Positions 42,395 through 64,000 of a DNA stretch of 64,000 bases are shown here, piece after piece; position 1 is the stretch's first letter; the number at the start of each line of letters is the position of its first letter. Under the pieces are notes generated by a model. It was not told the origin of the DNA and ran no database searches. It saw only the letters and a list, made by a program, of their open reading frames with translations. The position numbers and the translations under genes were made by a program. The stretch covers positions 2,394,001-2,458,000 of the forward strand of contig OX387608.1 of assembly GCA_947568835.1 (NCBI GenBank), in the 5' to 3' direction. The stretch comes from Protonemura montana. Its lineage: Eukaryota; Arthropoda; Insecta; Plecoptera; Nemouridae.

Positions 42395-45300
42395 TCATCG
42401 GACGGATTTGAGGTAGTTTGAAGCTCCTTTCTGGCACGGAAACGTGAAGTGGAAGATGTCTCCGGCTTCGACGATGTAACAGCTGGCAGAAGTCCCGTAT
42501 TTGATGACGTACACGCCTGCCTTGCCGACCTCCATAGCGCTACAAAGGTAGGGACTGGGTAAGTACGTTGTTTCCATGTGACGAGGTAGTCTGAGCATAC
42601 GAGTTCAGTTATAGCAACTAAGAAGTGGACTCCAAAGGGAACTATTTTTTAGGCTGAATTTTTGATGTGTGAACAGACAAATTTGTGGTGAATGTTTGTC
42701 AGCTTGTCAATGTTTCATCTATCTTCAAAAAATGTAGATGACATTAGCTAGCTGAATATTATAGAGAATGAAACACAAGAAAAATTGGAGTAAGTTGGCA
42801 GACTTGCCGTAAGCTGGTTGTGTGTAAATAGTCTGAAAAAGTGCCATGCTTTGACTAACCCCTTCATATGATTTTAAATTGGGGCATAAATTAGGCTCAT
42901 TATATTTCTTAACACAATTGTTTCCCTGCTATGGCAGTATTGCACTTACGTCTGGCATGGCATCTCTTTGAAAGTCTTCATGGTGTCGATGCCCATCTTG
43001 ATGCTGAGGCACCTGTCTTCAACGTCGGAAGACTGAGCCGTCTTCGTAAGACCGGGACAGAGAGCCAACACTCGCAGGTTTGTGTTTTCAAAGTGGTAGG
43101 CGTCCTATGAAAATATAAAGCTGGTTGGATTACAAATTGTTGGTTTCTTTACTGATTGGTGATCTACTTGATTGTGACGAGTTTATTTTTGTGGATGAAG
43201 ATGCATGTTTCCTGGCTCTGGCAAAGTCTCTAGGTATTTATTCATTTCAAACCCAGGATAATCAAATAGTAAATGTATAGGTCAGGTCAGTTGTTTAGCC
43301 TAGATACACAGTTGTATTTAGAGAAGATGTAGAAACATATTTTTGATGATTTCAGGCAGGATATGACAGAATAACTATATAAATAAAGAGGTAAATAAGG
43401 TAAAATTTATGTATATAATAATTATAAGTGTTTGTACATAGAATGTGGTGCCAGGATGTGTGGTTCTACGTGGTATTGGTCGTGGAGGATAGGTATTCAT
43501 CTAGGGAGTAGAAGGGGTTTTGTTTTGTAGAAGCAAAAAGCATGTGGAATTTACGTTAGGGGAAACCCATGCAGTAAGTTGAAGGGTGGGCATTGATGCC
43601 GCCTGATCGCTAATTGATACTAGTCAAATCCAAGTCACATCCAAACAGATGACTTCAAGACACAGTTTACAAGAATTCGAGAAGGTTCTTGTCATTGTGG
43701 CCTTGTGGAGGAATTACTATACCAGATTTGTAAGTGCTATCAGCTTTGAGATTTGCACTTTGCAAGGTTAATTTATAGTTCCAAGGACTTAAGCAATAAG
43801 TAGAATAGAAAATCTCTTATCTAATTTCAGAAGTCCACTACACGTTATTTATTTTCTTGTATAACCAGTATTGTAAAGCAAAATAGCCCTTACCCCGAAA
43901 CACCTGGTAATTCCGATAACTCCGTGCTTTGTTGCCGTGTAGATGGGTATGGTAGGTTGCGGAATCATCCCAAAAATTCCGGCAATGTTGACCACCACGC
44001 CACCCTTGCCTTTGTTGCACGATCCATCCTTGGCCATATACTTCATTGCTAGAATTGTTCCTCTAGTGACTGATTTCTGAAATGTGAAGACCCTCTTTGT
44101 GAACAAGCCCTGCATGTAGACATGTCTGGCATTCATTTGACAGGTCAGTTATTTTATGATTTCCTACAAGATTAGTGTCGACTTGGAGCTCCCAGCATTT
44201 GTCGTTCAGGATGCCAGCACCGTTGACCATAATGTCAATCCTTTGGAATCTGGCAATCGACTCTTTCATCAGACCTATAGCAAGAGACAGAATCATTCCA
44301 GAGTTCGGCCTCATTTTATTGCACTATCTGCCAGTTTTTTAACTCGTTTGTTATGGTTCTAAACACCTACTCTCAAACTGATTGTTACAGTTGACATCAA
44401 CTTCGTAGTACACTGCCTTTCCTTGACCAAACTCTTCATTCAGTTTGTCAACAGCCTCTTCTCCTTCACAAGGACTATTCGAAGCCAGGATCGCTTTCTG
44501 CAAGTCAAACCATATATTATTTTAGTTGTTGCCCGGCTGCTGATATTCAAATTACCGAGTTTGTGTTCACAGCTATCAAAGCTCTAATAATTTTACAGCT
44601 GAATTATACAAACCAAAGTCTAGAATTGTTGCTCTCAAAGCAAAATATGCTTGTCCAATGGTCTACACATTTTTAACACTCTACATTGCATTGTGATCAG
44701 CTTACAACAAAGAAATCAATCGAAAAAAAAGCAACAGATTAAACATTGGCTCATGACAGATGGCAAACAGGTTTGTATCAAAACAGTGAATCGCAATGTG
44801 AGATACCAACCTGTAGACCCGCACAGAGCAGTTGCTGTGCGATTGCATATCCAATGCCCGATGAACCTCCCGTGATGAGCGCAATCTTGCACGCGGGCTC
44901 CATCAGCGAAATCTCTTTGCCAGACGCCGAACTGAAAGCAACGAGGATGGGACCGTGTGTCTATTTATGAACCCAGACAAATTGCACAGTTATGATTGTT
45001 TTTAGACTCATGTCTACTTGATTTATCCTTAGCACAAGTTTTTAGAAAAACTATTTAAACTGGGTTTTGAATGCTAAGTAAAGGGCTACTAAATTTCCCG
45101 ACGTTTCGTAACATATACTAGTTACTTCTTCAGAGGTTTGAGCAGTCCTCAAACTGACTGCTCAGTCCTCAGACTGCTCAAACCTCTGAAGAAGTAACTA
45201 ATATATGTTACGAAACGTCGGGAAATTTAGTAGCCCTTTACTTTGCATTCAAAACCCAGTTTAAATAGTTTTTCTAAAAATTGCACAGTTTGTTTGCAAA

Positions 45301-45718
45301 TCACTAATGAATGATTCTGATTTGCTCGCACCATTTCTTCACCGGCGGAGGGGGCGTGCACGAATCAGGGGGGGGACTGCACTTGCTGCTGAAGTATTGG
45401 CTCGCTCCAAATCTTCCCGTTGTGTGTCTGGAAAGTAATTATTGATAAGAAATCATTGACCATGTCTCAGCCTTCAAACTGTCTCAGAATGATCTAACAG
45501 TTTGGCGTGTTGGAAACACCGGTTCTCGTAAGATCACCAAAGTTGAGCAACACTGCGCTGGGTCAGGTATTGGATGGGTGACCACTGAACGGTTTGGCTT
45601 GTCGGAAACACCGGTTCTCGTGAGATCACCGAAGTTAAGCAACACGGTAAAATGTCCTATGTACGACAACGTGGGTGAGTTGTACTTACCGCGTGATCGT
45701 TCTAGCAAGCGGCAGCAT
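42395..45718 (-). CDS. SDR copy 1: short-chain dehydrogenase/reductase with Cys/Pro N-terminal spacer
   Basis: Eight exons: 45690-45718, 45332-45427, 44811-44931, 44371-44497, 44168-44274, 43894-44076, 42950-43104 and 42395-42539. All phases agree and give 320 residues. The fold is a classical SDR of the 15-hydroxyprostaglandin-dehydrogenase / insect alcohol-dehydrogenase type: dinucleotide motif TGGSSGIG, VNGAG (usually NNAG), the conserved Asn in DTNL, Y-TAT-K (IYTATKHGVIG) and CPG. The Ser expected 13 residues before the catalytic Tyr is Gly (VVNIAGIFG), and the acidic NAD-selecting residue after strand 2 is replaced (AILASN). The N-terminus MLPLARTITRHTTGRFGAS is basic and hydroxyl-rich like a mitochondrial presequence, followed by a spacer CSPPPDSCTPPPPVKKC. 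First of four tandem copies. Substrate unknown; the missing Ser argues against normal dehydrogenase activity. Confidence 0.9.
45001..45285. repeat. Foldback hairpin with two opposed hammerhead-like cores
   Basis: GACTCATGTCTACTTGATTT, then AACTATTTAAACTGGGTTTT ... CCCGACGTTTCGTAACATAT ... CTTCAGAGGTTTGAGCAGTC runs to 45150, then reverses (CTGCTCAAACCTCTGAAGAA ... TTACGAAACGTCGGGAAATT) to about 45280. Arms are about 115 bp. It sits in SDR copy 1 intron 2, between the Cys/Pro exon and the first SDR-domain exon. Confidence 0.88.
45495..45660 (+). repeat. Two 5S rRNA-like heads in tandem
   Basis: Twice in a row: GGAAACACCGGTTCTCGT, then (A/G)AGATCACC(A/G)AAGTT(A/G)AGCA. The first copy continues through GGTCAGGTATTGGATGGGTG, then ACC (5S box C). 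These are the 5' part of the 5S-derived repeat, in SDR copy 1 intron 1. Confidence 0.8.
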
Positions 45719-46159
45719 CGTCGTGGTCTGGCGGGACTTTTCTGTTGAGGTACGAAACTGCTTGTGCTTAGAATTTTGAGGCCGAAAGGGATTTTGTCTG
45801 GATGTGAATTTTCAAAACATCGTTGCCAAAGTTACTACCAGCGACAGTTTACTGCTGCTGTTTAACACATTGTCGGGCACTTATATTGTGAAGCTGATTA
45901 TGAAAAATGGTTGCTTAGATACAAACATCTCTTTCTTTGGCAATAAAAGAATAAAAAACAACTTAATATTGCTAAATACCTTCATAACAAGTACTTGTAT
46001 ATTGTGTTATACAAATATTATTGGTTAGAATACCAAAAGTCAGAATCAATTCCAATTTTTATATTTTAGATTGACATTTTGCTATTTTTATCAAAAGCTT
46101 TTCATTTTTTTCAGTTTCTTTGAAGTCTTGAGCAGTGGAAGGTAAAGTTGTTCGTTAGG
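45719..46159. promoter_or_regulatory. Upstream region of SDR copy 1 / 3' flank of SDR copy 2
   Basis: About 440 bp between the start codon of copy 1 and the stop codon of copy 2, both minus. It must contain the copy 1 promoter and copy 2 polyadenylation site. No repeat is recognised, and I see no clear core promoter motif. Confidence 0.45.
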
Positions 46160-49100
46160 TCATCGGAAGCTCTTGATGCACTGGCTGGCATCCTTCTGGC
46201 ACGGGAACGTGAAGATGGACAGGTCCCCACCCTCCATGATGTAGCACCCAGAGGACTTGCCATACTTGACGAGGAAGACGGCAGCCTTGCCAACCTCGTC
46301 AGCCCTGCCCAAACAAACAGGCCTTGCTTTGATTGCTGCTCATTTTAATAGTACAAGAAAGTTCATCTTACTGACAACTTTCAGATCTTTTGTAGCAAAT
46401 CATTGGAAGCTCTAACCAATTGAGCTATTTGGACACTTGCTTTTTGACAGGATTTTCTATTTGAAATCTTATTTAAATTGCAAACGCTTGCAATGTGCGG
46501 GGTATTTTATTATTATGAACACTAAAACCGGCTCAAAATTTGATGCCCAAACAGGGACTCGAACCCCGATCTCCACCTGTCGCGGGTGTTGCTCTAACCA
46601 ATTGAGCTACTTGGACACTGGCTTTTTGAGACAATTTTAAGGTATTTGACAGGGACCCGAACCGAAATGATTAAAGGTTCTGGTTCCGGTTCCGGTTCCT
46701 AATTTTTTCTAATTAGGGTTCTGGTTCTGGTTCCGGTTTTACGTTTTTAAAGGTTCCGGTTTCGGTTCTGGTTCCATATTGTGAAGAGGGGTTCCGGTTC
46801 CGGTTCCTAATTTTCTCAAATAAGGGTTCTGATTCCGGCATTAAGTTAAAAAAGGTTCCGGTTCCACTTGATAAATAAAGCGTTATTTTTTTAAATTTTG
46901 CTGTTGTACAGGTTCAAGTTTTAGTGGTTTTTAGTGACACTTAGTTTTGTTTTTCCATCTGCCAGGGACAGGTCTTTTTCCTCACATTGGGACTGAAAGC
47001 ACACGAAGCCAGTTGCATAAAAGATAGGGGTGTAACGAAGTCGTAATAATTTTTTTGATTCAATTTCTCTGCACCAGTAGAGTTACACAGTACTACTATG
47101 TACGGAGTAAAAAAGGCAGTCTAGTCCATCTCTATAAGACAAAGCATGCACGACAAGAGGTTAGTTTGTTTGAGGCTTTCAAGTAAAAAATGTAAAGAAA
47201 TGGATTTACGGTTACACTCTGATGGGGACAGGCAAAGGGTTATTTCACACTAGACATAAAATTAACTATAAACTAGATAAACCAGCTTTTCAAAATTATA
47301 AAAGGGGGCCCACCTATGCGGGTTGTGAGCTTTATAGGGCATTGCCGGTGGATCTTCAAATCAAAAAGGACAAGAAATTCAAAATTGTGCTCAAGAATTT
47401 TCTACTTGAAAAATGTTTTTCTACTGTAAAGATTTTTATTGTATAAGGTAGAGACAATGAAAAATTGTAGTGTAAATGTAAATATTATAGTACCTAAAAA
47501 TGTTGCTATAGATACATAAGACGTATATGTTGTTTAAAATGTCTTGTGTTTTCCCCAAACAAAATCGTGGATACAAGATGAGTCAATGGATGTTTTCGGA
47601 ACAAACCAGTGAAACGTTTTTTTTTAGCGTGGAAAAATTAAAAACAAAAAAGTTGTAAACATAATAAGCAAATAATTTTAATAGGAATTTCTGAAATCTC
47701 AATATAACTTCGAAACCTTTATGGAACCTTTAAGGAACCGAAAAGAACCCATGATTTAATAAGGGTTCCGGTTCCGGTTCTTGGAAATTAATAATAACGG
47801 TTCTGGTTCCGGTTTCGGTTCCAAGAAAATACGGGTTTTTTCGGGTTCCGGTTCCGGTTTCGGTTCCGGTTCGGGTCCCTGGTATTTGATGAGAATGACA
47901 GATCTCCAAGGAGTAAAACCAAGAGGCTGTAAATACTCAGTCACTCTGATTCTAGTGACGCTATATCACGTCACAACCTGTCAATTTCCAGTAACTCCAA
48001 TTACGCAAAGTAGTTTATAATTACGAACTCTTATAACGAGCTCGTGTAAACATACGTCTGTTGTGGCAGTGAAATGATCTCCTTGGCCGTGTCGATGCCC
48101 ATGATGGGCGTGAGGCACTTTTGTTCAACGTCGACGATATGTTTGGTTTTCGTCACTCCGGGACAAAGCGCCAGCACTCGCAGATTTGTGTCCTCGAAAT
48201 GGTACTTGGTCTGCAAACCAAAGCAAATCAACATCAAAACAATCGAATACAGGTTTGAGATTTTACAACATGCTACCGGATTTTTTTAAAATTATTAACA
48301 ACACTAAAACCGCCTCTAAAACCGTGTTTTGTGACGGTTATAGTATTTTTAGTAATAAAATACCCCGCGCATTGCAAGCGTTTGCAATTTGAATCAGATT
48401 TCATCCTAATGCTACCGGAAGATTTTAAAAAGATGTCATTTTTAATCTACAAGACGAAATTAAGGAAGTTACTAATGGATAATGAATTGTATAGCACTGA
48501 TGAGTTTGTAATACATATAAGTAATGAGACAACTTATTAATTATCTATAAGAAATAATGTATATATATATATATGTATTTGATCTTTTTATATCTGTGTT
48601 TATGTATGTCTTTTCAATCTCAATAGAAGATTGGACAATAAACAATTTAAATAAATAAAAAATAAATAAAAAAACACTTAATCAATTGAAGACTTGAACA
48701 GGTTTGCAACAGGCTTAAAGAAGGAGGAATTCAGGTGTTGGAACAAATTGCCAGTACTATGTTGGTACTATATGAAGTGAATGACTCGATGAAGGTATCT
48801 CACCCCAAAAGATCGAGTGAGTCCAATGACCCCGTGTTTAGTTGCCGTGAGAATCGGCACCGTCTCGTGAGGAATCATTCCCGCGATGCCGGCGATGTTG
48901 ATGATGACTCCGCCCTTCCCTGAACTGCACGAGCCGTTCTTGGCCAGGAACTTCATGGCAAGCACCATGCCGCGGACTGTCGCTTTCTGAGACAATAAAC
49001 GCGGTCAATTGTAGCACGAAGCATTGACTCGTTGCGGTGAAGATATCTTAAGATATCAATTATTAATATTATTATGTAATAATTTAACAGCATTATTATG

Positions 49101-52100
49101 TACTGTTATTTATTCTATATCAATATGTTCCTTTTATGTTGTGTAACCTTCTTGGTATGTGTGATCCCATAGCCTGATAGCTAAAAAATATATTCATTCT
49201 CAGTAGGCGCTGGTTTGACCCAATTTGAATCTCTAATCTACAAAACACTCAAGGCTGATTTCATCAAAGCCATTTAAATCTTGCGTAATGGGCATTTAAG
49301 GGAGGTTTTGAGACAAAATTTATTTTCCCTGATAAGCCAACATTTTGAAATAATTGAGAGGGATTGTTAAGATAAGTACACGAAAAAGATGTAATTTTAA
49401 TTTGGTGATGACTCAGAATGGCTTTTTCCTGTCACATAAAAGAAATTTAATTTAGCAGCCGTCACTATTTTCTCTCTGTCCAAATCACCGTTTAATATTT
49501 AAACCTGGAAGGATGGGGTTTAACTTTTAAACTGTCATTTGGAGGTCAAAGTAAGAAGTCCCATTAACATTTTGTTTGTATTTCCAAGTCTCCAAATATT
49601 CCGTTTCAGAGAAAACACATTGGTAAAAACTATTGTATTGTAAACTATTGAAAAAACTACTTGTTCATTCTTGTTCAAAGAAAATTCATGGGGAATGATA
49701 TCCAATGTTTTACCAAGTTCGTGTCACATTCCAACTCCCACGCCTTGTCGTTAAGAATGCCAGCCGCATTCACCATGATGTCCACTCGGTTGTACTTATC
49801 CAGCGACTCCTTTATCAGACCTGCAGTCCACAGAACATTGCATTCACTCACAGAACTCTTCGACAGGAGGAGGCTATGTACCGGCACCAAGTTTCCCATC
49901 CTCCCTTCTAGGCTAGGTAAGATTCATCATCATCCACTCATTCACCGACGCCATTAGACCAGTGCCACATGACCCGTTATTAAAACAGTGCATCGTTAAA
50001 CACAATAATCATCAGAAGTTGCTGTGTTCATGTACAATAAACTGCTTATTGCTATTTTATTATTATGAACACTGAAACCGTCTCAAAAATTGATGCCCAA
50101 ACGGGTAAATCCCCATTGGGCAACAATTTTTGAGACGGTTAGTGTTCATAATAATAAAATACCCTGTGTATTGCAAGCGTTTTCAATTTAAAAAAGATTT
50201 TATCTTAATGCTTATTGCTAGTTTTTGTAATTACGATGTGAAGGAGCTCACATTCAAACTGGTTGTTGCAATTGACGTCGACTTCGTAGTATACTGCTTT
50301 GCCCTGACCAAACTCGTTGTTCAAAGAGTCCACGGCGTGTTCTCCTTCACAGGAACTGTTGGACGCGAGGATGGCTTTCTGCAAAAAATGTCGACGTTGA
50401 ATTCGTTACATGATATCTGACGGAGCATTGTATATATTAGGAATAAATTACTCATTCGTGCGCGGCTTGGTATCAAGTTATTGACTTCATCTTCCGAGTT
50501 TATCTTGTGAGCTTTGAAACTTGTCACTTTGATATAACAAAATTGATTAAATTCACAATATCCACAATATTCACAAAATTGAAATATCTATTTACAATAT
50601 CCAGCCTCTTGGCATCCTATTCACAATATCCAGCCTCTTGCCACCCTATTCACAATATCCAGCCTCTTGGCATCCTATTCACAATATCCAGCCTCTTGGC
50701 ATCCTATTCACAATATCCAGCCTCTTGGCATCCTATCCACAATATCCAGCCTCTTGCCACCCTATTCACAATATCCAGTCTCTTGGCATCCTATTCACAA
50801 TATCCAGCATCTTGGCACCCTATTTACAATATCCAGCCTCTTGGCATCCTATTTACAATATCCAGCCTCTTGGCACCCTATTCACAATATCCAGTCTCTT
50901 GACATCCTATTCTCAATATCCAGCCTCTGGGCATCCTATTTACAATATCCAGCCTCTTGGCATCCTATTCACAATATCCAGCCTCTTGGCACCCTATTCA
51001 CAATATCCAGCCTCTTGGCACACTATTCACAATATCCAGCCTCTTGACATCCTATTCACAATATCCAGTCTCTTGACATCCTATTCACAATATCCAGCCT
51101 CTTGACATCCTATTCACAATATCCAGCCTCTTGGTACCCTATTCACAATATCCAGCCTCTTGGCATCCTATTCACAATATCCAGCCTCTTGGCATCCTAT
51201 TCACAATATCCAGCCTCTTGGCACCCTATTCACAATATCCAGCCTCTTGACATCCTATTCACAATATCCAGCCTCTACGCACCCTATTCACAATATCCAG
51301 CCTCTTGGCACCCTATTTACAATATCCAGCCTCTTGGCATCCTATTTACAATATCCAGCCTCTTGGCACCCTATTCACAATATCCAGTCTCTTGACATCC
51401 TATTCTCAATATCCAGCCTCTGGGCATCCTATTTACAATATCCAGCCTCTTGGCATCCTATTCACAATATCCAGCCTCTTGGCACCCTATTCACAATATC
51501 CAGCCTCTTGGCACACTATTCACAATATCCAGCCTCTTGACATCCTATTCACAATATCCAGTCTCTTGACATCCTATTCACAATATCCAGCCTCTTGACA
51601 TCCTATTCACAATATCCAGCCTCTTGGTACCCTATTCACAATATCCAGCCTCTTGGCATCCTATTCACAATATCCAGCCTCTTGGCATCCTATTCACAAT
51701 ATCCAGCCTCTTGGCACCCTATTCACAATATCCAGCCTCTTAACACCCTATTCACAATATCCAGCCTCTTGGCATCCTATTCACAATATCCAGCCTCTTG
51801 ACATCCTATTCACAATATCCAGCCTCTACGCACCCTATTCACAATATCCAGCCTCTTGGCACCCTATTCACAATATCCAGCCTCTTGGCATCCTATTCAC
51901 AATATCCAGCCTCTTGGCATCCTATTCACAATATCCAGCCTCTTGGCAACCTATTCACAATATCCAGCCTCTTGGCACCCTATTCACAATATCCAGCCTC
52001 TTGGCACCCTATTCACAATATCCAGCCTCTTGGCACCCTATTCACAATATCCAGCCTCTTGGCATCCTATTCACAATATCCAGCCTCTTGGCACCCTATT

Positions 52101-53423
52101 CACAATATTCAGCCTCTTGGCATCCTATTCACAATATTCAGCCTCTTGGCATCCTATTCACAATATCCAGCCTCTTGGCATCCTATTCACAATATTCAGC
52201 CTCTTGGTATGCTTTTTACAATACCCAGCCTCTTGGCATCCTGTTCACAATGAAAGTCAAGTAAGTAGTAAAGAATGTTAGCGCGTTGCCAGCTGTTTTA
52301 CCTGCAACCCTGCACAGAGCAATTGTCTTGCAATCGCCAGTCCAATGCCCGATGAACCTCCCGTGATGAGAGCAATCTTGCATGCTGGCTCCATGAACGC
52401 TTTCTGCTTCTCAATCGCTGAGCTGCACTCGATCAGAAAGACACATGTACGTTCATTTGTTAGAATGCTTTGCTTTTTGCTACTAGAGTGTAGTCCGCTA
52501 TTTGGCTATTGTCCTGGGTATACTCTATGGTAATAGTGATGAAGCGCTGGAAAATTAAACAAATATATACAACGTTTAATAACAAATGGACAAGTGACAA
52601 GTTCTGCATACTTGAATTCTGTCGGCAATACTTTATTGCATCACTTACCTTTGACTAGATTACTTGGTTTCAAAGCTATCTCTGCGGACTTTGAATTGTA
52701 TTTGTGTGATATTTTTATCAACACTATAATTTTTGAGACGGTTATAGTGTTGATAATAATAAAATATCCCGCACATTGCAAGCGTTTGCAATTTAAAATA
52801 AGATTTCATCCTAATGTATTTGTATTATATTCCATTACTAAAGTAACTTGATGGAAGAAACCAACATTTTTTTATGTTTTTTAACATCTGTGTTACCATT
52901 TCTTCTCCTGTGGCGCTGGAGGGGGGCATGTTGGAGGAGGGGAGCAGGAACTGCCAGCACGAACCGACGCCAGCCTGCCGATATGAAACCTGCAAAGAAC
53001 CATTGTATTTTATTATTATGAACAATATAACCGTCTCAAAAATTGATGCCCAAACGGGGATTTGAACCTCGATCTCCACCTATCGCGGGTGTTGCTCTAA
53101 CCCATTGAGCTACTTGGACACTGACATTGTGAGATGATTTTAGTGTATTTGACAGGTTGTGACGTGATATAGCGTCACTAGAATCAGAGTGACTGTGAGT
53201 ATTCACAGCCTCTTGGTTCTACTCCTTGGAGATCCGTCATTCGCATACCAGCAACTTTGAGAATACTTTTTTTGTGCGATGATAAGCTTGTTCATGACTG
53301 TATTACTGCAGCCTCCCCAGCCAATGATTCCATTCTGTTCACACTTTGTAATGCTGGACCAAGGCAAATCTGCGTTCAATTGTAAATGTCTTACCTTGCA
53401 AAGGACCTCCCCAGCGGTAACAT
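46160..53423 (-). CDS. SDR copy 2: short-chain dehydrogenase/reductase with Cys/Pro N-terminal spacer
   Basis: Eight exons: 53395-53423, 52897-52989, 52302-52422, 50252-50378, 49714-49820, 48804-48986, 48056-48210 and 46160-46304. The exon sizes equal copy 1 except exon 2, which is 3 nt shorter; 319 residues. N-terminus MLPLGRSFARFHIGRLAS is presequence-like; spacer SCSPPPTCPPPAPQEKKC; then MEPACKIALITGGSSGIG. Active-site region: VNAAG, VIINIAGIAGMIP (Gly where Ser is expected), ILTATKHGVIG. The expected catalytic Tyr is Leu here (P-I-L-TATK), so copy 2 has lost both Ser and Tyr. CPG motif and C-terminal block (KYGKSSGCYIMEGGDLSIF) are retained. Introns carry a hAT-like element, tRNA-hairpin repeats and a 1.7-kb 29-bp minisatellite. 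Confidence 0.9.
46400..46649 (-). repeat. tRNA-hairpin repeat, left part, split by a transposon
   Basis: Core 46545-46616 on the minus strand and the arm up to GGTATTTGA. The copy resumes at 47882 after the hAT-like insertion (GTATTTGATGAGAATGACAG ... to about 47990). Confidence 0.9.
46650..47881. mobile_element. hAT-like non-autonomous DNA transposon, 1232 bp, with 8-bp target duplication
   Basis: Terminal inverted repeats CAGGGACCCGAACCG (left) and CGGTTCGGGTCCCTG (right) match over 15 bp. The element is bounded by the perfect 8-bp duplication GTATTTGA (46642-46649 and 47882-47889). Both subterminal regions are dense in GGTTCC/GGTTCTGG hexamer-type repeats, likely transposase-binding arrays. 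No transposase frame is present. Inside, 47222-47520 is a reverse-transcriptase 3' end (YRALPVDLQ ... LKNFLLEKCF), captured or inserted. TSD length and CAGG-type ends are those of the hAT superfamily. Confidence 0.9.
47222..47520 (+). mobile_element. Non-LTR reverse-transcriptase 3'-end relic inside the hAT-like element
   Basis: Frame 47222-47446: ELYRALPVDLQIKKDKKFKI, then VLKNFLLEKCFSTVKIF, then stop, a typical LINE ORF2 end. It is nested in the transposon. Confidence 0.6.
48275..48410. repeat. Collapsed tRNA-hairpin repeat
   Basis: Arms AACACTAAAACCGCC and TGACGGTTATAGTATTTTTA plus the end ATTGCAAGCGTTTGCAATTT remain, with no tRNA-like core. Confidence 0.7.
48411..48665 (+). mobile_element. 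Retroelement 3' end with A-rich tail
   Basis: Frame MLPEDFKKMSFLIYKTKLRK, then LLMDNELYSTDEF, then stop resembles LINE ORF2 C-termini. An AAATAAATAAAAAATAAATA tail follows at about 48645-48670. It lies in SDR copy 2 intron 6. Confidence 0.6.
49250..49665 (+). repeat. Interspersed repeat, GATTTCACCAACG family
   Basis: GATTTCATCAAAGCCATTTA, then AATCTTGCGTAATGGGCATT ... TTTAGCAGCCGTCACTATTT ... AAGTAAGAAGTCCCATTAAC, collinear with the copy at 21485. It ends about 50 bp before SDR copy 2 exon 5. Confidence 0.75.
49850..50005 (+). repeat. Tail part of the 5S-headed SINE-like element
   Basis: TACCGGCACCAAGTTTCCCA ... ATTCATCATCATCCACTCAT ... CCATTAGACCAGTGCCACAT ... CATCGTTAAACACAATAATC. This matches the 3' part of the full element at 55040-55802; the 5S head is absent. 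Confidence 0.75.
50055..50205. repeat. Collapsed tRNA-hairpin repeat
   Basis: ATTATGAACACTGAAACCGT, then CTCAAAAATTG faces CAATTTTTGAGACGGTTAGT with only about 30 bp of core left between. The end palindrome is present to 50195. Confidence 0.8.
50588..52252 (+). repeat. 29-bp minisatellite, about 57 copies, with higher-order structure
   Basis: Unit: CACAATATCCAGCCTCTTGG, then CATCCTATT. Variant positions (CATC/CACC, GGCA/GACA, GGTA) form a pattern. A marked variant block (TCTCAATATCCAGCCTCTGG) occurs at 50911 and again at 51404, 493 bp or exactly 17 units apart, with matching neighbours. It fills most of SDR copy 2 intron 3. The unit has no stop codon in any plus frame, hence long artefact frames. 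Confidence 0.97.
52715..52815 (+). repeat. tRNA-hairpin repeat, right end only
   Basis: ATTTTTGAGACGGTTATAGT, TGATAATAATAAAATATCCC and GCAAGCGTTTGCAATTT; lacks the tRNA-like core. Confidence 0.75.
53000..53245 (-). repeat. tRNA-hairpin repeat with internally inverted segment
   Basis: Core 53048-53119 on the minus strand. Beyond the arm, the segment with the GTGACGTGATATAGCGTCAC palindrome and CACAGCCTCTTGGTTCTACT is in the opposite orientation to that in the copies at 3046 and 40300. It lies in SDR copy 2 intron 1. Confidence 0.85.
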
Positions 53424-53958: not shown

Positions 53959-56900
53959 CTAGCAGACGGAAGTCAAGAAGTTAGCCGATGAATGTTGCTC
54001 GGGGAACGTGAAGTGGAAGATCTCGCCAGCCTCCACGATGTAGCAGCTGGACGAAGTGCCGATCTTGAGGACGTGGACAGCGGCCTTCCCTACTTCGTGC
54101 GCCCTGCCGATAAGATTAAAAAAAAAATTTTGCTGTGTCCCCATTTTGCTTTGGGCGATTGCTTTACACTAAATTGCCTCTGCCTTACACTATCAAAGAT
54201 TGCTTCACACTACATCGCCTCTGCCTTACACTATCAAAGATTGTGCAGCCCGTTGCAAGCAACAAGAATCTCTGATGTGCGGACATGCAAGGATTCATGC
54301 AAGGATCAACAATGTCGGAAGGTAGAATGCATTGTTCAGCTTTTCGACTGGCATAATGCTGTCATGCTTGGTAGTTAGTTGGTTTGACATTCCAAGATGG
54401 AATCGAGAAGAGAGAGAGAGGCAGTAAAAAGACCGGCACGAAAGTAAGATTGTGACGATCAAAAACTCTGCCGTGAAATGCAGATAGAGAAAGAAGAGCA
54501 GGTTGCATTCCCACTAGAAGTGAGTTTGCTAAATCTGCGATAGGGCTATCAATTAGTCTACGTGGGAGCAGGAATTGAAGTAGATGCAGGAATTTCTAGC
54601 TCTGGGAGGAGCATTTCCGTTAGAATGTCCACATGAGAGAGCAATGGTCGTACAGTTTTTTAAAAGGGCTATCTGTCGTCAATTGCCGATTAGAAGCAAG
54701 GAGGCGTTACTTCAGTGTACATCGAGGAGGGTTCCGTTGAAAGTTCTTGTTGTTCTTGTTGGTTCTTGTGGTCTAGAGTTGGTTAGATTAGTTCAGGTTA
54801 CATATTGACCTTTGAAGCGGCAGCGCGTGGATCTTTTTGACGGAGTCGACGCCCATGCGAGCGCTGAGAGACTTGAGCTCAACGTTCTCCAGCTGGCCCG
54901 TTGTGGTCACCCCTGGACAGAGGGCCAGCACGCGAAGACAGGTCTTCTTGAAGTGGTACGGGTCCTGTATAAGATGGAGAAACTCAGTACAAACATTCCA
55001 ACACAATTTCACTTAGAAACAAACCTCAAACTGCAAGTGAAACACCGGTCCTCGTGAGATCACCCAAGTTAAGCAACACTGCGCTGAGTCAGGTATTGGA
55101 TGGGTGACCATTATACACATGACTAGTTCTATTCGGGAGAGAGGTTGGAGGGATATAAGTTAAGCGACACTGCACTGGGTCAGGTATTGGATGGATGACC
55201 ATCATACACATGACCACTTCTGTTTGGGAGAAAGGTTGGAGGGATGAAAGTTAAGTAACACTGCACTGGGTCAGGTATTGGATGGTTGATCATCATACAC
55301 ATGACCAGTTCTGTTCGGGAGAGAGGTTGGAGGGATGAAAGTTAAGCAACACTGCACTGGGTCAGGTATTGGATGGGTGACCATCATACACATGACCAGT
55401 TCTGTTCGGGAGAGAGGTTGGAGGGATAAATGTTAAGCAACACTGCGCTGGGTCAGGTATTGGATGGGTGACCATCATATACATGACCAGTTCTGTTCGG
55501 GAGAGAGGTTGGAGTGATGAAAGTTAGTACAGTAACTTCACTCGCCTTGCTTATCAACCTCTCGACAGCATGGATTTGTGGAGGAATCCTGCTGTTCGAG
55601 TTGTACCGTCCTTCGGAAGTGACGTTAATCCAGTGGTTCCCTTGGTGCTCTTCGGCACGTGCCGGCACCGGGTTTCCCCTCCTCTCTTCTAAACTATATT
55701 GGGTTCATCATCATCCACTCATTACAGACGCCATTAGACCAGTGCCACATGACCCATTATCAAAACATTGCGTCGTTAAACACCACAAATCAATCAATCA
55801 AGTATAAAGGTTAAAGCAGACGAGCGTGGTGCTTACCCCGAATGATCGGGTGAGTCCGATGATGCCGTGGTTGCTAGCGCTGTAGACAGGTGCGGTCTCC
55901 GCTGGAATCATGCCGGAGATCCCAGTGACGTTGAGTACGACGCCACCGTTTCCCTTGCAGCACAAACCATCCTTCGCCATGTACTTCATGGCCAGGATGA
56001 CTCCCCTAGCCGTTGCCTTCTGTAACCAAGCCAAGCGTTCTATCAAAACAACTTCAATAGCAGGCTCAAACTGCCTCCGCAATACTCGGTCAAATTTTTA
56101 TTAAATTAAATTAAATTTTAGAAATATAATGTGTATCCCATTATTATGAACACATGGTAACAGTCTCAAAAATTGATGACCAAACGTGGACTTGAACCCC
56201 GATCTCCACCTGTTGCGGGTGTTGCTCTGACCCATTGAGCCACTTGGACACTGGCTTTTTGAGACGATTTTAGTGTATTTGATGAGAATGACGGATCTCC
56301 AAGGAGTAGGACCAAGAGGCTGTGAATACTCAGAGTCACTCTGATTCTAGTGACGCTATATCACGTCACAACCTGTCAATCTCGAGTAACTACAATTTTA
56401 CGTTGGATTCGTTGCTGTATTAGGATGAAATCTTATTTAAATTGCAAACGCTTGCAATTCCCCGGGGTATTTTACCACGTCACCGTCCCAAAAAGCCAGT
56501 GTCCAAGTAGCTCAATTGGTTAGAGCAACACCCACGACAGGTGAAGATCGGGGTTTAAGTTCCCGTTTGAGCATCAATTTTTGAGACGGTTATAGTGTTG
56601 ATAATAATAAAATACTCCGCGCATTGCAAGCGTTTGCAATTTCGATCAGATTTCATCTAAAAGTGTCTCCCAGGCCGCCGTATTATTATCCTGGCACATG
56701 AGGACGTCTTCTTACAAGATTGGTGTCGATCTCGAGGTCCCAGCATCGGTCGTTCATCATCCCGGCCGAGTTTACCATGATGTCAATCCGGGAGAACCGG
56801 GATATTGTCTCCCTCATCAAGGCTGGAAACAAAACCACGTCTCAATTCAGGATGGGAAGATCAAGGGATGGATCATTAGTATTATTATTTCTATAAAATA

Positions 56901-59900
56901 TGTATTATCATTATTACTCTAGAATATTATCATTATACCTTTATTTTAATTTTATTAAGATTACCACTTCTGAATTAGATAGGTACCTACTAAGTCCACT
57001 ATTATTAATAACCCTACCACAGAGTAGGACCAACTATTACTTTATTATGAGGTACTGTACTGATCGTAGTCTTAATCACTATTATTATTATTAAATTTTA
57101 CATCACTGTTTACAGTTCCATATGTAAACTTATTCTATAAGACCATACAATTACCATGTAACTTGTCAGTAGCCAAACAAATAAATCAAAAACAAAGGAT
57201 TCAATTCATTTGCATTAATCCAAATATTTTTTGTAAAAAATAAAAAAAAAACCTAGCATCCTTCACATTAAAATTACGGCCCACTATGAAGATTCAACTG
57301 AAAAAATGAGTAAATAATAAAACAAACCGCAAGACTGCTCAGATAAAGTGATGTATTCCCACATCAACACATGGATTTAGTTAAATAAATAAAAAAAAAA
57401 CCTATATATAGTTCCTAGAATAGTTTCTTACCACATCCCAAACCATATACAATTGTAAGATGAAATTAAAAATATCAAATATCAATTACACTTGTTCTCA
57501 ATTACCTAGTAAACTCTAGAATCCAAGATGAATATTAGAGTTATCATTGGAGTGTAACGTTGAAGGTTCTTGGGCTTAGTTTGATTGTTACTTAAAATGA
57601 ATGCCAAACCTTCAAACTGTTTGTTGCAGTTAACGTCGACATCGTAGAAGACGGCCTTGTTTTGTCCAAACTCCTCGTTCAGTGATTTCACCGCCGCCTC
57701 CCCCTCGAGTGAATTGTTGGACGCAAGGACTGCTTTCTGTGAGAAGCGAGAACCACTTGGGTCGGTCCATGTCTTGAATTATCGATATTTTGAGTCGTTA
57801 TTATTTACTTAAAGAGGTTCTTTAAAAAGGACGGCAGCAAGCGCCATTGGGTGGCATCTACCGTTACTACGTGTTGTCGGCCTCGTTTGCTCAGCAGCAA
57901 GCGCCATCGGGTGGCACCTACCGTTACCACGTGTTGCCGGCCTCGTTTGCTCAGCAGCAAGCGCCATCTGGTGGCACCTACCGTTACCACGTGTTGCCGG
58001 CCTCGTTTGCTCAGCAGCAAGCGCCATCTGGTGGCACCTAACGTTACCACGTGTTGCCGGTCTCGTTTGCTCAGCAGCAAGCGCCATCGGGTGGCACCTA
58101 CCGTTACCACGTGTTGCCGGCCTCGTTTGCTCAGCAGCAAGCGCCATCTGGTGGCACCTACCGTTACCACGTGTTGCCGGCCTCGTTTGCTCAGCAGCAA
58201 GTTTAACATCAGCGCTGGCTCTCTAATAACTCAACAACACTACCGACCTTGAGTCCAGCGCAGAGCAGCTGTTGAGCTGTCGCCAACCCGATCCCAGACG
58301 TGCCTCCCGTGATGAGCGCGATCTTGCATGCGGGCTCCATGAGTACCAACTCCTTGCCGGTGCTGCCAACCAAACAACAGATAGAGACAGAATCATAGAC
58401 CGTCCATCAGTGCCGGTCTTTCAGCGGCACGTTAAGAAATTAACAGACTGCAGTGTTTTTTGGTTTTCTGGCATTTCCACTAGGGAGCAAAAACCAGCAA
58501 GCGTATGAATTGGAAAGGAAGCTAGACTGGAGCTTCCTTTCCAATTAACAGACTGTTAACAAACAGAAAACGTCTTTTCATTGGTTTTAATTACAAATTA
58601 ACGTACCGTTAGGTTCTTATCGACCACTGTAAAATGGGCACTTAGTATGGGAATCACTAAAAAAACAGGCTAAAGAAGGTGGATTTTTATCGTTTTAAAG
58701 TATTGATGGGAAATAAATGGGGGTTGGAGGGAATTGAATAAGAAAGTGAACGAGACGGAAGAAAATATAGACATCGAAGACAATTCTCGAGTCAGTTTTG
58801 ATTTAAAACAAAAACGGAGGCAAATTCTCTTGTTTTTAATATGGACCGCTAAAGAATGTGACTTATTAGAAGAAAGAAACGTGAATGAAGGAAAAAAATG
58901 ACAAGGACGAATTTCAAAAACTTTTACCCCCATCGTCCTATCGAGTGTGTTCTATAAATATGGACAGCAGCAAAGTCCAACGGAAATGTTAGGGGAAATA
59001 GGTTGGGCGTCTTTAGAGAATAGGAGGACGGTGGTCAAGATGTGCATCGTGTACAAGGCAATGACCGGGCAAGAAGCACGGTGTGAAATAAGTGTTCACA
59101 GCTGGAAAATGCCCAGCGTCTGGGCAGGCTGGACCACCGCATGAAGTTCACAGAGACAGGCCATCGAACCAACGCTGGAAAGGCACTCATTTGTGTCGCG
59201 CCGTGACTCATGGCCGTCAAATGTTTTCAAATGTCCAAGTTTTCAAGGAAAATATTGTAAATAATTATGTAAACTACTGAAATGTAAAATCTTAGTCACA
59301 GGGCATAAAGCCCAGAACTAATTAAACCCAATAAATAAAAATAAATAAAATAAAAAGTATCAAACTCTTACCATGATTGTTTTTAGACTCATGTCTATTT
59401 GATGTAAACTTAGCACTAGTTTTAACAAAAACTATTTCAACTGGGTTTTGAATGCTTAAAGGGGGTACAAGCTACAAAATGTTGAGAAATTTATTTGTCC
59501 TTTACTTAGCATTCAAAAACCAGTTGAAATAGTTTTTGTTAAAACTCTTACCATCTTTTTGGGGGCGGGTCTGGACAGTAGGTGTTGCTTGGTGGCGCTG
59601 GAGGCGGCGGTGGCGGGCAGCAGATATTCCTCGGGGGCGGTGGTGGTGGGGGCGGCGGTCCACACGGGTTTTTACGCGGGGGCGGTGGCGGAGGTCCCTT
59701 GCACTGCTTGGGTTTACGAGGCGGACAGCACTTGCGACCAGGTGGCTTTGGGGGCGGACAGCATGGACTGGCTGGGGGTGTCGGCGGTGGAGAGGGGCAG
59801 CAGTTCTTTGGGGGCGGGTCAGGTGGGTTGCATGGCTTGGGCTTGGGGGCGGGAGGGGGGCAGCACTTCTTTGGTTTTGGGGGCGGGGGTGGGGGCGGGC

Positions 59901-60421
59901 AACACTTGGTGCTGAAGACGTAAGCAAAGCCGAGACGACCATGAGAGAACCTGTGAAGGATTTTAGAAGAGTTGTTCTGCCGGCTAACAGAATGGAGTGG
60001 GTCGCGGCCCACTAACCTAACCTAACCTGGTTACAGAACTCGTTCATAGTTGATGCTTTTTAACATTGTAAACAAATTCAAAATGTTTAAAAATGACCAA
60101 AAATTGATATTATTACTATGAAGACTATTCTCGACATCAATTTCTGAGACGTTTATACTGTTCATAATAATAAAATACCCACGCATTGCAAGCGTTTGCA
60201 ATTTAAATTAGACTTCAAATAAAAATTGAGATCTTAGTATTGTAAATTTTAAACTATTTTATGTATTTTATATCGAATTGTCTAGTATGTTTATTTGTAA
60301 TATTTTGCTTGCAAACTGTCCAACCATAAATTTATCTGGTTGTCATTATTATTTTAGTGGAACAGTTTGGAATTAATTAATCAAGTACCCACCATGTGCT
60401 TGTCCTTCCAAAGGGTAGCAT
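53959..60421 (-). CDS. SDR copy 3: short-chain dehydrogenase/reductase with long Cys/Pro-rich N-terminal region
   Basis: Eight exons: 60393-60421, 59552-59950, 58248-58362, 57610-57736, 56716-56822, 55837-56019, 54810-54964 and 53959-54103. Phases agree; 419 residues. Exon 1 (MLPFGRTST) was found by its 29-nt length, phase and resemblance to copies 1 and 2. Exon 2 is 399 nt instead of 93-96: after FSHGRLGFAYVFSTK come more than 110 residues made almost only of Cys, Pro, Lys and Asn (CCPPPPPPPKPKKCCPPP, then further CCPP units). Then ELVLMEPACKIALITGGTSG starts the SDR domain. Active-site region: VNSAG, VVLNVTGISGMIP (Gly for Ser), VYSASNHGIIG; here the catalytic Lys of YxxxK is Asn. CPG is kept. 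Probably mitochondrial and not an active dehydrogenase (inference). Confidence 0.9.
54104..54809. other. SDR copy 3 intron 7, nothing recognised
   Basis: About 700 bp without a known repeat, except a small local duplication (TGCCTCTGCCTTACACTATC twice near 54177-54240) and a GA-rich stretch near 54400. Confidence 0.5.
55040..55802 (+). mobile_element. 5S rRNA-headed SINE-like element with tandem head
   Basis: Starts with the 5S-like head (AACACCGGTCCTCGTGAGAT, then CACCCAAGTTAAGCAACACT). The 91-bp unit containing the 5S internal promoter then repeats five times (to about 55520). The body (AACTTCACTCGCCTTGCTTA ... GGCACGTGCCGGCACCGGGT) follows, and the 3' tail (CGTCGTTAAACACCACAAAT, then CAATCAATCAA) completes it. 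The ATCA-type tail suggests a LINE partner with the same 3' end. It lies in SDR copy 3 intron 6, ending 35 bp before the exon 6 donor. Confidence 0.85.
56140..56660. repeat. Inverted pair of tRNA-hairpin repeats
   Basis: Minus-strand core 56178-56249 with a complete right side (GTGACGCTATATCACGTCAC palindrome, TTGCAAACGCTTGCAA), followed at 56470 by a plus-strand copy with core 56501-56572. It lies in SDR copy 3 intron 5, ending 55 bp before exon 5. Confidence 0.88.
56850..57200. other. A+T-rich tract, probable retroelement tail
   Basis: ATTATTATTTCT-type simple sequence and phrases like those at 17080-17160 (ATTATTATCATTATTACT). It may be an untranslated tail of the same retroelement family; weakly supported. 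Confidence 0.4.
57838..58203. repeat. 60-bp minisatellite, six copies
   Basis: Unit: GCGCCATCGGGTGGCACCTA, then CCGTTACCACGTGTTGCCGG, then CCTCGTTTGCTCAGCAGCAA, repeating exactly every 60 bp with a few point changes. Since 60 is a multiple of 3, frames stay open in both directions, but it lies inside SDR copy 3 intron 3, 45 bp from the exon 3 donor. Confidence 0.95.
58935..59360 (+). mobile_element. Non-LTR retroelement 3' end
   Basis: Frame with EIGWASLENRRTVVKMCIVY, then KAMTGQEA, typical of LINE ORF2 C-termini, ending with AATAAATAAAAATAAATAAA at about 59328-59350. It lies in SDR copy 3 intron 2. Confidence 0.7.
59375..59548. repeat. Foldback repeat abutting the Cys/Pro exon donor
   Basis: GATTGTTTTTAGACTCATGT ... 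AACTATTTCAACTGGGTTTT, then GAATGCTTAAAG, reverses to CTTTACTTAGCATTCAAAAA, then CCAGTTGAAATAGTTTTTGT. The right arm ends only a few bases from the splice donor of SDR copy 3 exon 2 (donor GT at 59550-59551, minus). Confidence 0.8.
60125..60220 (+). repeat. tRNA-hairpin repeat, right end only
   Basis: GACATCAATTTCTGAGACGT, TTATACTGTTCATAATAATA and GCAAGCGTTTGCAATTTAAA; lacks the core. It is in SDR copy 3 intron 1. Confidence 0.7.
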
Positions 60422-62485
60422 CTTCACTCGGTTCACAGCCAGGAGGCACTGAAGTTGATTCACTCGAAATTTCAATTACTAAGGTCCAATGGGAAATTTT
60501 GACTGAATTTATGACGAAATTTTTGACTGAATTTTTGATGAAATTTTTTACTTTAATTTTGACAGCTTGGTAACCAATGTTACTACAACAATATTACTTT
60601 TTAGTGCAGTTTAGTCTTCCGAGAATGTTGTTCATTTTGTTTCATATTCTCTCTGCATTTGACACGCTATTGTTTAACGAAAATGTCTTTCTGACGTCTT
60701 TTCGGTTCCATTTATGGCCGACCGAACTCTTTAGGAAAGTGAGCAATTGTATTCTACTTGGTACATAAATTCATCTGTTGAACACAGCTTTCTAAATCTT
60801 GCCGTATTGCCAGAACTTAGCAGTTGACTTCGTTGAGCTCATTTAACCTATCAAAATATTCCGGGAGCAGCTGGACTGGAAATAAAAATTGGCTTGGGGG
60901 ATATTTTATTCATAGATCAGCTTGAAATGTTGTTTTTATTAGAAGTTACGACAAAAATGACAAGTATTGTACACTACAGCAATTGCTTATAGCTACATGC
61001 TATCTCTTCTAGCTACGTACTCGGTAGGTGAACATAAAGGGTGTTGTACTTCGGTTAAAAGGACTCAATCCCCGTTTCACGGAGATCATTTTCCGTGCTC
61101 GACTTTCTCTCAATATAAAATCGGACACTGACAGCAATAAATTACAAAATACATTCATCTCGGGTACCAAAACGTGTTAGAAAAGGTTTCCATTCATTGG
61201 ACTAGGGCCAGACATCACGTAAATATCGCAGACAAAACTTAAATATGATTAACAACTTATCAAACTACCGTAAAACAATTCAATAATTCGTAATCACATA
61301 GACATAACACTCATACACTCTGATTAGTTACAATATCTGGTTAGTATTATTATTATTTGTTCGTTTTAAAATTAATTCAAACATTATTTTTCGAGTGCTA
61401 TCAAAATATCACGCTTTAAATTCTTAGAAGCAATACGTGTACATAAACAAGTGAAGTTTTGGAATATTCAATACTTTGTACTAGCAAAGTGGTTCTTTAA
61501 ATCTTATTTTAAAACTTTAAGTGATAAAAACAAATATTATATTCGTTTAGAACCTTTAGATTTCTTAACAAGCTAGATACGAGTTAATTGTAATGATTTT
61601 AGAAGCTCCTCTAAGTTATCAACATTGCTTAAATTCCGGTATAGACACGTTATGGTAAAAGCTGTTCACATATTTTCTACATTGACGCTTAACCAGTCGC
61701 TACTGCTAGCAAATTTGTTCAGGCTACCCTCCAATCAGCATGCTTTAGAAGGTAGGTGGAACCATAAGAACCTACCCTAACCTTAATACGCTAAATTAGC
61801 ATCTTATATGGCACAACATATGATACACGAGAAATACACAATAATCAATAGAGTTTCATACAGTAATCGCCAGGCATGGAAAGAGGTCGTAGAATCTGCC
61901 AACAAATCGGGAACAAAACTGGATTTCTGTGCTTGCACTTGTCTTTACATTCACATTTCTGGAAATTAACTTTCGTTTCTTATTTGACCAAAGCAGCATT
62001 TATCTGTCACTTTTGACACAGAGCCAGCTGTTTTATAAGCAGCTGTTTTTACAAGCACTTGATGCAGCCGATTTAAGCGTTAGCGTATGTTCGCTTGCCT
62101 TTTGATCTCGCAAGTCACGTAAGCCATTTGTTCCATCTTTCCCGGCACCAAGGTGCCTGATTTTAAAACCTTATCGACATGACTTGATTCCAGTTTTGCT
62201 GCCTATGCCTTACAATAGGCAGCAAGCAGGAGACGAGAAATGCACCTCAACTAACCAGCTGTTTGGATATCCATGTCCGTTCAGGAACCGTTCAGGCACC
62301 AAACGGAACGCAACTGCAAAACCTTGCCCAACTTTGAACTATGAGTACGAAATTCCAGGGCCATCTTAACTGTCTGCAGATGGCAACGTGAGTCTAGCCT
62401 AATAGGTACAAGTTTGAACACTTGTTTAACTTTTGGTTATTTAAGGTTATTTCAGGTCATATGAGATCAGCGGACTGGTATAGAC
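60422..62485. other. SDR copy 3 upstream region and SDR copy 4 3' region
   Basis: About 2 kb of A+T-rich sequence. It should include the copy 3 promoter at its left end and the copy 4 3' UTR at its right end. No repeat family of this window and no coding exon are recognised. Confidence 0.5.
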
Positions 62486-63674
62486 CTAGTGGGCCAGGAA
62501 ACTTATTTCCCGCGCTGGTTCATTGTTTTCCACGAGCCACACGCTTCCGCTGGCTGCCTTCTGAAGCACATGAATCAACGCACGTGCCACATGCTCGTTC
62601 CTGTGGATACGGAACAAACAGTCAGTCCGAGGGAAATATCGTTGTCATATGCGACTTGATTCCATCGATTTGAGGTTAGCTTCGAATTTGTAGCTTTAGA
62701 CAACGAGACTCAGCACTGACGTTAAAGCTGTGAAAATTACTGGTCGACAACTACAACGATGGAAATATTTCTGACCAAAGCCGTTTAAAACGCTTTTAAA
62801 CAACATTTGGGGTAATTTTCAATCGATACAGTAATTTGCTTTGAAATGCAGACATTAAAGCTAAAAATTCTAGACAACAATGAGAAAAGTACTTGGTATT
62901 CAAAACCCAGTTGAAATAGTTTTTGTTCAAACTAGTGCTGAGGCTAAATCAAGTAGACATGGGTCTAAAAACAATCATACAAGAAAAATACTTTTTAAAA
63001 GTGTAGTTTTTAACAAACGGAATATTTGGTGACTTGGAAATACAAACAAAATATCAATGGGACTTCTTACTTTGACCTCCAAATGACAGTTTAAAAGTTA
63101 AACCCCGGCCTTCAAGGTTAAAATATTAAACGGTGATTTGGACAGAGAGAAAATAGTGACGGCTGCAAAATAAAAGTTATTTTATTTGACAGGACAAAGC
63201 CTTCCTGAATCATCACCAAATTCAAATTTAAATTTACATATTTTTTTGTGTATTTATCTCAACATTCTCTTTGAAATATTTCAAAATGTCTGCTAAACGG
63301 GGACAGGACAAAGCGAAATCGGTCAAGTCGAGACATCGATGGCGTACTCACTTCTGCGGCACCAAATTAGCCATGTCTCTCTTCCACGCTCGTTCGTAGT
63401 CCCCGGAGAGCAGCATCTTCTTGACGTCCGGTCCCGCGTCGGCGGCCGCGGGGCAGACAGAGACGACCCTGACCCCGGTGACGTTGGCGTGGAACGAGTC
63501 TCCGAACGCGCGAGTGAAGCCCACGATGGCGTGCTTCGTTGCCGTGTAGATCGGGACGCTGACGTACGGCCGGACACAAACGTTGGAGCCCGTGTTGACC
63601 ACGGTACCCCCGCGACCGCCGCGATCCTTGCCCATGAAACGTTGGGCAAGCAGCGTGCCACGAATCACACCGTT
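62486..63674 (-). CDS. SDR copy 4 (3' part; 5' exons outside window), divergent paralogue
   Basis: Two exons visible: 63352-63674 and 62486-62600, joined in phase (AA-G), coding the last 145 residues. The first exon has GTLLAQRFMGKDRGGRGG, TVVNTGSNVCVRPYVSVPIY, TATKHAIVGFTRAF and VVSVCPAAADAG; the last has NEHVARALIHVLQKAASGSV, then WLVENNEP, like the C-terminal end of 15-PGDH-type SDRs. The Ser 13 residues before the catalytic Tyr is present (N-T-G-S), as are Tyr and Lys, so unlike copies 1-3 this copy could be an active enzyme. Two blocks that are separate exons in copies 1-3 are fused here without an intron. Whether it has the Cys/Pro N-terminus cannot be seen. Confidence 0.85.
62770..63330 (-). 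repeat. Interspersed repeat, GATTTCACCAACG family, with foldback-repeat fragment
   Basis: The segment contains a piece of the foldback repeat at 62890-62985 (ATTCAAAACCCAGTTGAAAT ... TCAAGTAGACATGGGTCTAA). Then comes the GATTTCACC family body (AACGGTGATTTGGACAGAGA, AAATAGTGACGGCTGCAAAA) to about 63330, some 20 bp from the SDR copy 4 exon edge. Confidence 0.75.
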
Positions 63675-63754: not shown

Positions 63755-64000
63755 ACAACTATTCTCAATATCCAGCCTCTTGGCATCCTATTCACAATAT
63801 CCAGACTCTTAGCATCCTATTCACAATATCCAGCCTCTTGGCATCCTATTCACAATATCCAGCCTCTTGGCATCCTATTCACAATATCCAGCCTCTTGGC
63901 ACCCTATTCACAATATCCAGCCTCTTGGCACCCTATTCACAATATCCAGCCTCTTAGCACCCTATTCACAATATCCAGCCTCTTGGCACACTATTCACAA
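63755..64000 (+). repeat. 29-bp minisatellite, at least 8 copies, running off the right edge
   Basis: Same unit as at 50588-52252 (CACAATATCCAGCCTCTTGG, then CATCCTATT). It lies in the intron of SDR copy 4 upstream of its 63352-63674 exon. Confidence 0.95.

Follow-up and report, generated by a model that had tools for sequence, protein, structure and literature searches.

A tandem family of SDR-fold proteins with a basic leader and a Cys/Pro-rich arm, candidate structural pseudoenzymes, in the stonefly Protonemura montana

Background

Among insects, the contents of sperm mitochondria have been described best for Drosophila, in which dead aminopeptidases, the S-Laps, form a major component. 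With these we compare three tandem genes, designated A, B and C, of the stonefly Protonemura montana, which lie in a stretch of 64,000 bp (the window; positions 2,394,001–2,458,000 of contig OX387608.1, C11:2394001-2458000, assembly GCA_947568835.1). Their predicted products combine a basic leader, an arm rich in cysteine and proline (Cys/Pro arm) and a short-chain dehydrogenase/reductase (SDR) fold. All eight S-Laps have predicted import signals and changed catalytic residues and belong to the paracrystalline material of sperm; they are found in sperm pellets resistant to sodium dodecyl sulfate, and mutants are male-sterile (PMC6388916). The S-Lap paracrystalline material also contains the glutamate dehydrogenase Bb8 and catalases (PMC11012351), and orthologues of the S-Laps also occur in abundance in sperm of Culex (PMC9934393). 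The molecular identity of crystallomitin of Notonecta remained unresolved, according to the authors of PMC6388916. In mammals, the sperm mitochondrial capsule is built of disulfide-joined Cys/Pro-rich proteins (PMC9956255), and the Mst(3)CGP proteins of Drosophila, which have Cys-Gly-Pro repeats, are male-specific, deletion of the Mst84D genes resulting in abnormal axonemes and malformed nebenkern derivatives (PMC10645079).

Both the structural use of dead enzymes in sperm and the existence of Cys/Pro-rich sperm proteins are already known, and a fusion of Cys/Pro-rich sequence with an SDR in insects was not found in the open-licence literature, as judged from titles and the beginnings of abstracts of the papers listed; nor did a paper on stonefly sperm appear there by title. 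The explanation of A–C which we favour, tentatively and short of calling it probable, is that they are structural pseudoenzymes with a leader and a Cys/Pro arm in mitochondria, the likeliest site being the mitochondrial derivative of sperm. As named genes from an order distant from flies, they make it possible to ask whether different enzymes were recruited for this role elsewhere among insects, and they would represent a natural case of stepwise loss of catalysis with the fold still under selection.

Results and discussion

Fold and active site

A (42395–45718, 320 aa), B (46160–53423, 319 aa) and C (53959–60421, 419 aa) are complete genes on the minus strand. Pfam family PF00106 was identified in each product with E values of 1.2e-36 or better; solely SDR-type families scored above the cut-off in these scans, with no M17 aminopeptidase fold, and the glycine-rich TGGxxGIG (TGxxxGxG) motif is retained in all three. 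The active site was inspected in an alignment of A–C with the product of the neighbouring gene D, a ladybird (Cryptolaemus) protein described below, two Hetaerina domains, and proteins of Bradysia, Cataglyphis and Clarias. The positions we take to be the catalytic Asn-Ser-Tyr-Lys were assigned from general knowledge of SDRs, as was the acidic residue after strand β2, which presumably marks the use of NAD.

In exon 6, which covers the active-site region, the catalytic Ser is replaced by Gly in all three proteins. A (43894–44076) has the sequence NIAGIFG and retains Tyr and Lys in YTATK, B (48804–48986) additionally shows Leu in place of the catalytic Tyr (PILTATKHG), and C (55837–56019) Asn in place of the catalytic Lys (VYSASNHG), all on the minus strand; the catalytic Asn is retained. 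The NAD-type Asp is lost in all three as well, the residue being Ser in the ten-sequence alignment and Ala in another alignment. The seven other aligned sequences, those of D and Cryptolaemus included, have Asp, Asn, Ser, Tyr and Lys without exception. These changes agree with alignments of the three proteins to solved chains of 15-hydroxyprostaglandin dehydrogenase (15-PGDH), and of 223 relatives retrieved, 206 have, by a loose pattern, a Ser 12–14 residues before YxxxK.

The SDR domains of A–C gave dN/dS values of 0.12, 0.08 and 0.15, at dS values of 1.9–2.8 that are close to saturation, and by this measure the fold is under purifying selection. The fold is thus retained, whereas catalysis has very probably been lost. 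Judged by sequence, A–C are 15-PGDH-type SDR folds which very probably are no longer enzymes; we infer the loss of activity from residues, and since all three have lost Ser and the NAD-type Asp, and B and C one further residue each, the term dehydrogenase probably describes their fold, not their activity. By parsimony, Ser would have been lost first, in the common ancestor of A–C, followed by Tyr in B and Lys in C.

The N-terminal extension

In each gene, a 29-nt exon 1 (A, 45690–45718, MLPLARTIT..; B, 53395–53423, MLPLGRSFA..; C, 60393–60421, MLPFGRTST..) and a Cys/Pro exon 2 (A, 45332–45427, ending in SSKCSPPPDSCTPPPPVKK, with acceptor ttccag and donor gtgcgagc; B, 52897–52989, ending in GSSCSPPPTCPPPAPQEKK; C, 59552–59950, expanded) are joined in frame to the MEPACKIALITGG exon. 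The predicted proteins begin with MLPLARTITR, MLPLGRSFAR and MLPFGRTSTW, respectively, and the codon split by the junction of exons 2 and 3 reads TG|T in A and TG|C in B and C, that is, Cys in all three, so that the models match the in-phase joining of TG to C or T described in the initial annotation of this locus. A signature of exon 1 (an MLP(L/F)-type ATG, 29 nt, then GT) matches three sites when both strands of the whole window are scanned, all at A–C; having been built from A–C themselves, it indicates rarity only. For the first 16 codons, with the three gene pairs pooled, pN/pS was 0.31 in the proposed frame and 0.71 and 2.82 in the two alternative frames; the lowest value in 5000 column shuffles was 0.40, so that 0.31 was never reached. 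This coding-type constraint supports the view that the extension is, as had been proposed, real coding sequence.

The first 25 residues of A–C include three to four Arg/Lys and no acidic residue, and the net charge of the first 26 residues, likewise free of acidic ones, is +4 in A and B and +3 in C. The leaders share a motif G-R-(F/L), followed by G or A, which we take to resemble a site of the mitochondrial processing peptidase (MPP). Inspection of the sequences revealed no hydrophobic run that would suggest a secreted protein. The best helical hydrophobic moment of 14 residues was matched by 26% (A), 59% (B) and 85% (C) of shuffles; for comparison, 79% of shuffles match the beetle protein and 45% match D, which has no leader. 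A mitochondrial presequence, as suggested initially, is plausible by charge, since the start is basic and free of acidic residues, but it is not backed by amphipathicity, since the moment is matched by shuffles.

The extension comprises 50–51 residues (3 Cys, 8 Pro) in A and B, and 150 residues (17 Cys, 63 Pro) in C. Extension-bearing SDR domains contain 46 Cys in 1069 residues vs 67 in 3117 residues of 12 others (Fisher p 0.0004, approximate since the sequences are related; the other domains had at least 240 residues, two shorter ones being omitted). No Pfam family scored above the cut-off in the arm of A–C, the low complexity of which hampers homology comparison; a sub-threshold match to PF12242 (E 0.06) starts at residue 41 of B. 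When the assembly of 258.5 Mb in 34 contigs was searched with the arm of C, only its own locus was returned (10 candidates scored, low complexity). The pattern CCPPPP occurred 58 times genome-wide as compared to 12 times in a reversed control, 35 of the 58 matches being poly-C runs after two Cys codons. A second protein of the Cys/Pro-arm type did not appear at the 30 of the 58 loci at which frames were read, the other 28 including two in C, and this negative is weak because A and B would not match the pattern.

A ladybird protein of matching layout

A protein search with A alone gave 188 matches, of which the best 120 were listed, and a search with the alignment of A–C gave 114 proteins from 8000 candidates scored, the maximum; the 223 relatives consist of these best 120 of 188 and 103 further ones of the 114. 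The search with the alignment depends on shared words and is not a census of insects. The hypothetical protein HHI36_000884 (P0242, 429 aa) of the ladybird Cryptolaemus montrouzieri, absent among the matches listed for A alone (120 of 188), surfaced with the alignment query. It combines a leader with six basic and no acidic residues in its first 30 positions, a Cys/Pro arm and a 15-PGDH-type SDR, the extension comprising 171 aa with 33 Cys and 72 Pro, and is 37% identical to A over 78% of A. Among the 223 relatives, P0242 alone has a 60-residue stretch with at least six Cys (it has 18). Since it shares the order of leader, Cys/Pro arm and SDR, the layout is not confined to the stonefly lineage: looking for the combined architecture in other arthropods, as the initial annotation had advised, yielded a match, and its notion of a lineage-specific family is not supported. 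As to a single origin of the layout, a clade of A–C and the Cryptolaemus protein is not rejected by the approximately unbiased (AU) test (p 0.41; the groups in these tests were picked by trait and place), nor do the trees resolve it.

Another retrieved relative, P0241 of the damselfly Hetaerina americana (580 aa), has two SDR domains in tandem, joined by a linker. Perhaps annotation fused two adjacent genes here, in which case this group of SDRs would seem to be clustered in Odonata as well.

Gene structures and neighbouring gene D

The exons of A, B and C were joined by hand into predicted genes, with junctions known from sequence alone. Each gene has eight exons with identical phases, and GT-AG boundaries occur at 21/21 introns, so the three complete genes of common plan reported initially could be rebuilt. 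Exon lengths in nt are 29 for exon 1, 96, 93 and 399 (A, B, C) for exon 2, 121, 121 and 115 for exon 3, and 127, 107, 183, 155 and 145 for exons 4–8, length differences thus being confined to exons 2 and 3 and always multiples of three. Besides those given above, the exons of A, all on the minus strand like those of B and C, are exon 3 (44811–44931, CSASGKEISLMEPACKIALITGG..), exon 4 (44371–44497), exon 5 (44168–44274), exon 7 (42950–43104) and exon 8 with the stop codon (42395–42539). The corresponding exons of B are located at 52302–52422 (exon 3, CSAIEKQKAFMEPACKIALITGG..), 50252–50378, 49714–49820, 48056–48210 and 46160–46304 (exon 8, with stop), and those of C at 58248–58362 (exon 3, CTGKELVLMEPACKIALITGG..), 57610–57736, 56716–56822, 54810–54964 and 53959–54103 (exon 8, with stop). 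The donors of exon 2 of A, of exon 4 of C (gtttggca) and of exon 7 of C (gtcaatat) look weak by eye.

Adjacent to C, and also on the minus strand, gene D is predicted to consist of five exons, to start in the conventional way with MDVKGKIALVTGG and to contain a single GC-AG intron. Only exon 4 (63352–63674), which encodes a canonical SDR part with Ser, Tyr and Lys retained and is uninterrupted where A–C have intron 6, and exon 5 with the stop codon (62486–62600) are within the window; exons 1–3 are past its end, the gene extending to about 65241 in window numbering. The GC-AG intron is apparently intron 2 (64778–64869, donor gcacgtac), also past the window end. What had been listed as a fourth partial copy is indeed a partial minus-strand gene in the window, but one of conventional five-exon type and not of the eight-exon plan. 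The D model has neither leader nor arm, and its predicted start coincides with that of Bradysia P0001; both begin at the nucleotide-binding motif, as the initial annotation had stated for canonical relatives. In the tree, D pairs with Bradysia P0001 (support 99/97), and a grouping of A–C, D and Bradysia, neither demonstrated nor rejected, appears in the best tree with support of 20/44. An exclusive clade of A–C and D, as expected if A–C were simple duplicates of D, is rejected (AU p 0.017). A search of the genome with protein A, a limited first look (31 matches listed, 30 candidates), found exons in the A–D cluster and, among these matches, weak SDR matches elsewhere, the best at 8e-5.

A minisatellite of 29 bp, CTATTCACAATATCCAGCCTCTTGGCAYC, accounts for most of intron 3 of B (50588–52251, 57 copies) and also occurs in an intron of D (63759–64000, continuing past the window); it is open in long plus-strand frames and can resemble a coding repeat. 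Introns of C contain a 60-bp tandem repeat (57834–58201, 6.1 copies) and a 91-bp tandem repeat (55066–55526, 5.1 copies), the unit of the latter resembling sequence in intron 1 of A. An open frame rich in RGG-type repeats (40603–41028, plus strand) adjoins A and is possibly part of a gene for an RNA-binding protein. On another contig, of 25.9 Mb (C4), two copies of COX1 (C4:5760925-5762262 and 5776811-5777755) match the mitochondrial contig with identities of 99.84% (over 4338 bp) and 99.88% (over 2434 bp), and their starts are 15,886 bases apart, approximately one mitochondrial contig (15,885); they would be due either to a recent insertion, in tandem, into the nuclear genome or to misassembly. 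The mitochondrial COX1 itself shares 98–99% identity with nemourid stoneflies of several genera, and 97–98% with the Taeniopterygidae and Capniidae among the matches listed.

Proposed function and alternatives

Because A–C combine S-Lap-like and Cys/Pro traits in one protein, we propose a sequence of import, cleavage, oligomerisation and cross-linking. The basic leader, encoded by exons 1 and 2, would send the proteins into mitochondria and then be removed; the SDR fold would serve as a brick that oligomerises; and the Cys/Pro arms, encoded by exon 2, would connect these bricks, probably through disulfides, to form a stable structural matrix. Analogy with Drosophila S-Lap and mammalian SMCP makes the mitochondrial derivative of sperm the likeliest site. 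Several points weigh against this proposal. The amphipathicity of the leader does not exceed that of shuffles in A–C or in the beetle protein; the extensions of A and B contain merely three Cys each; the link of the Cys/Pro arm to sperm is one of composition; and the predicted masses of A–C are 34–45 kDa as compared to 52 and 55 kDa for crystallomitin of Notonecta (PMC6388916). Moreover, weak activity might remain in A with its Tyr and Lys, and since P0242 keeps its active site, the arm is not tied to the loss of catalysis.

Structural or scaffolding pseudoenzymes could also reside outside sperm mitochondria, for example in cytoplasmic fibres of the sperm tail or in another tissue, the leader not being an import signal. 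This is somewhat unlikely but deserves serious consideration, as the case for the leader is compositional and the Cys-Gly-Pro proteins of the Mst(3)CGP group are male-specific, with abnormal axonemes upon Mst84D deletion (PMC10645079); the basic, acid-free start common to A–C and the beetle protein, and the lack of a hydrophobic run for secretion on sequence inspection, count against this reading. If A–C were active mitochondrial SDR enzymes, the extension would merely target or tether an oxidoreductase of the 15-PGDH/photoreceptor dehydrogenase (PDH) group that still turns over substrate. The strong PF00106 matches, the retained TGGxxGIG motif and the intact Asp, Asn, Ser, Tyr and Lys of the beetle protein of equal layout fit this idea, which is nevertheless improbable in view of the loss of Ser and NAD-type Asp in 3/3 proteins, of Tyr in B and of Lys in C.

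A regulatory role, in which dead SDR subunits join and steer an active SDR such as D in mixed oligomers, would agree with the intact relative adjoining A–C and with the general knowledge that SDRs are commonly oligomeric. We give it a slim chance: the D model, devoid of leader and arm, would place that protein in another compartment should the leader be functional, and D is nearer to Bradysia P0001 than to A–C. Least probable, and by a wide measure doubtful, is an annotation artefact in which exons 1 and 2 are part of other transcripts and the true proteins begin at MEPAC. An ATG is present there and canonical relatives begin at this position, yet such an artefact conflicts with the coding-type constraint on the first 16 codons, with the identical phases and split Cys codon in 3/3 genes, and with the continuity of the beetle database protein (itself predicted) through the same order of parts. 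A broader version of the structural mitochondrial proposal, which we regard as unlikely though worth stating, holds that structural SDRs of mitochondria, with import leader and disulfide-forming Cys/Pro arm, make up a class not described so far and common to insects as distant as stoneflies and beetles, that the stonefly pseudoenzymes build the sperm mitochondrial matrix, and that insect orders recruited different enzymes for it, an SDR here and an aminopeptidase in flies.

Comparison with known systems

The closest solved sequence relatives of A–C, with the same fold, are 15-PGDH and the Drosophila PDH (PDB 8fd8, 5ilg). In these chains the match to A–C begins at residue 5–16, so that they have no comparable extension, and according to its alignments 8fd8 has the catalytic Ser, Tyr and Lys and the Asp at the positions where A–C differ. 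Cryptolaemus P0242 resembles A–C in its basic leader, Cys/Pro-rich arm and 15-PGDH-type SDR, in the same order, and differs in its intact active-site residues and in that a single protein was seen. SMCP and Drosophila Mst(3)CGP share with A–C a Cys- and Pro-rich composition, with a disulfide capsule in mammals; unlike A–C, they are not mentioned as fused to an enzyme fold in the available text of PMC9956255 and PMC10645079. The S-Laps of Drosophila have an M17 peptidase fold where A–C have that of an SDR, and their structural role is experimentally shown whereas that of A–C is inferred; the words “cysteine” and “proline” are absent from the main text of PMC6388916. Like A–C, the S-Laps form a multigene family derived from an enzyme, in which catalytic residues have changed and an import leader is predicted (PMC6388916), and we propose them as the working model for A–C.

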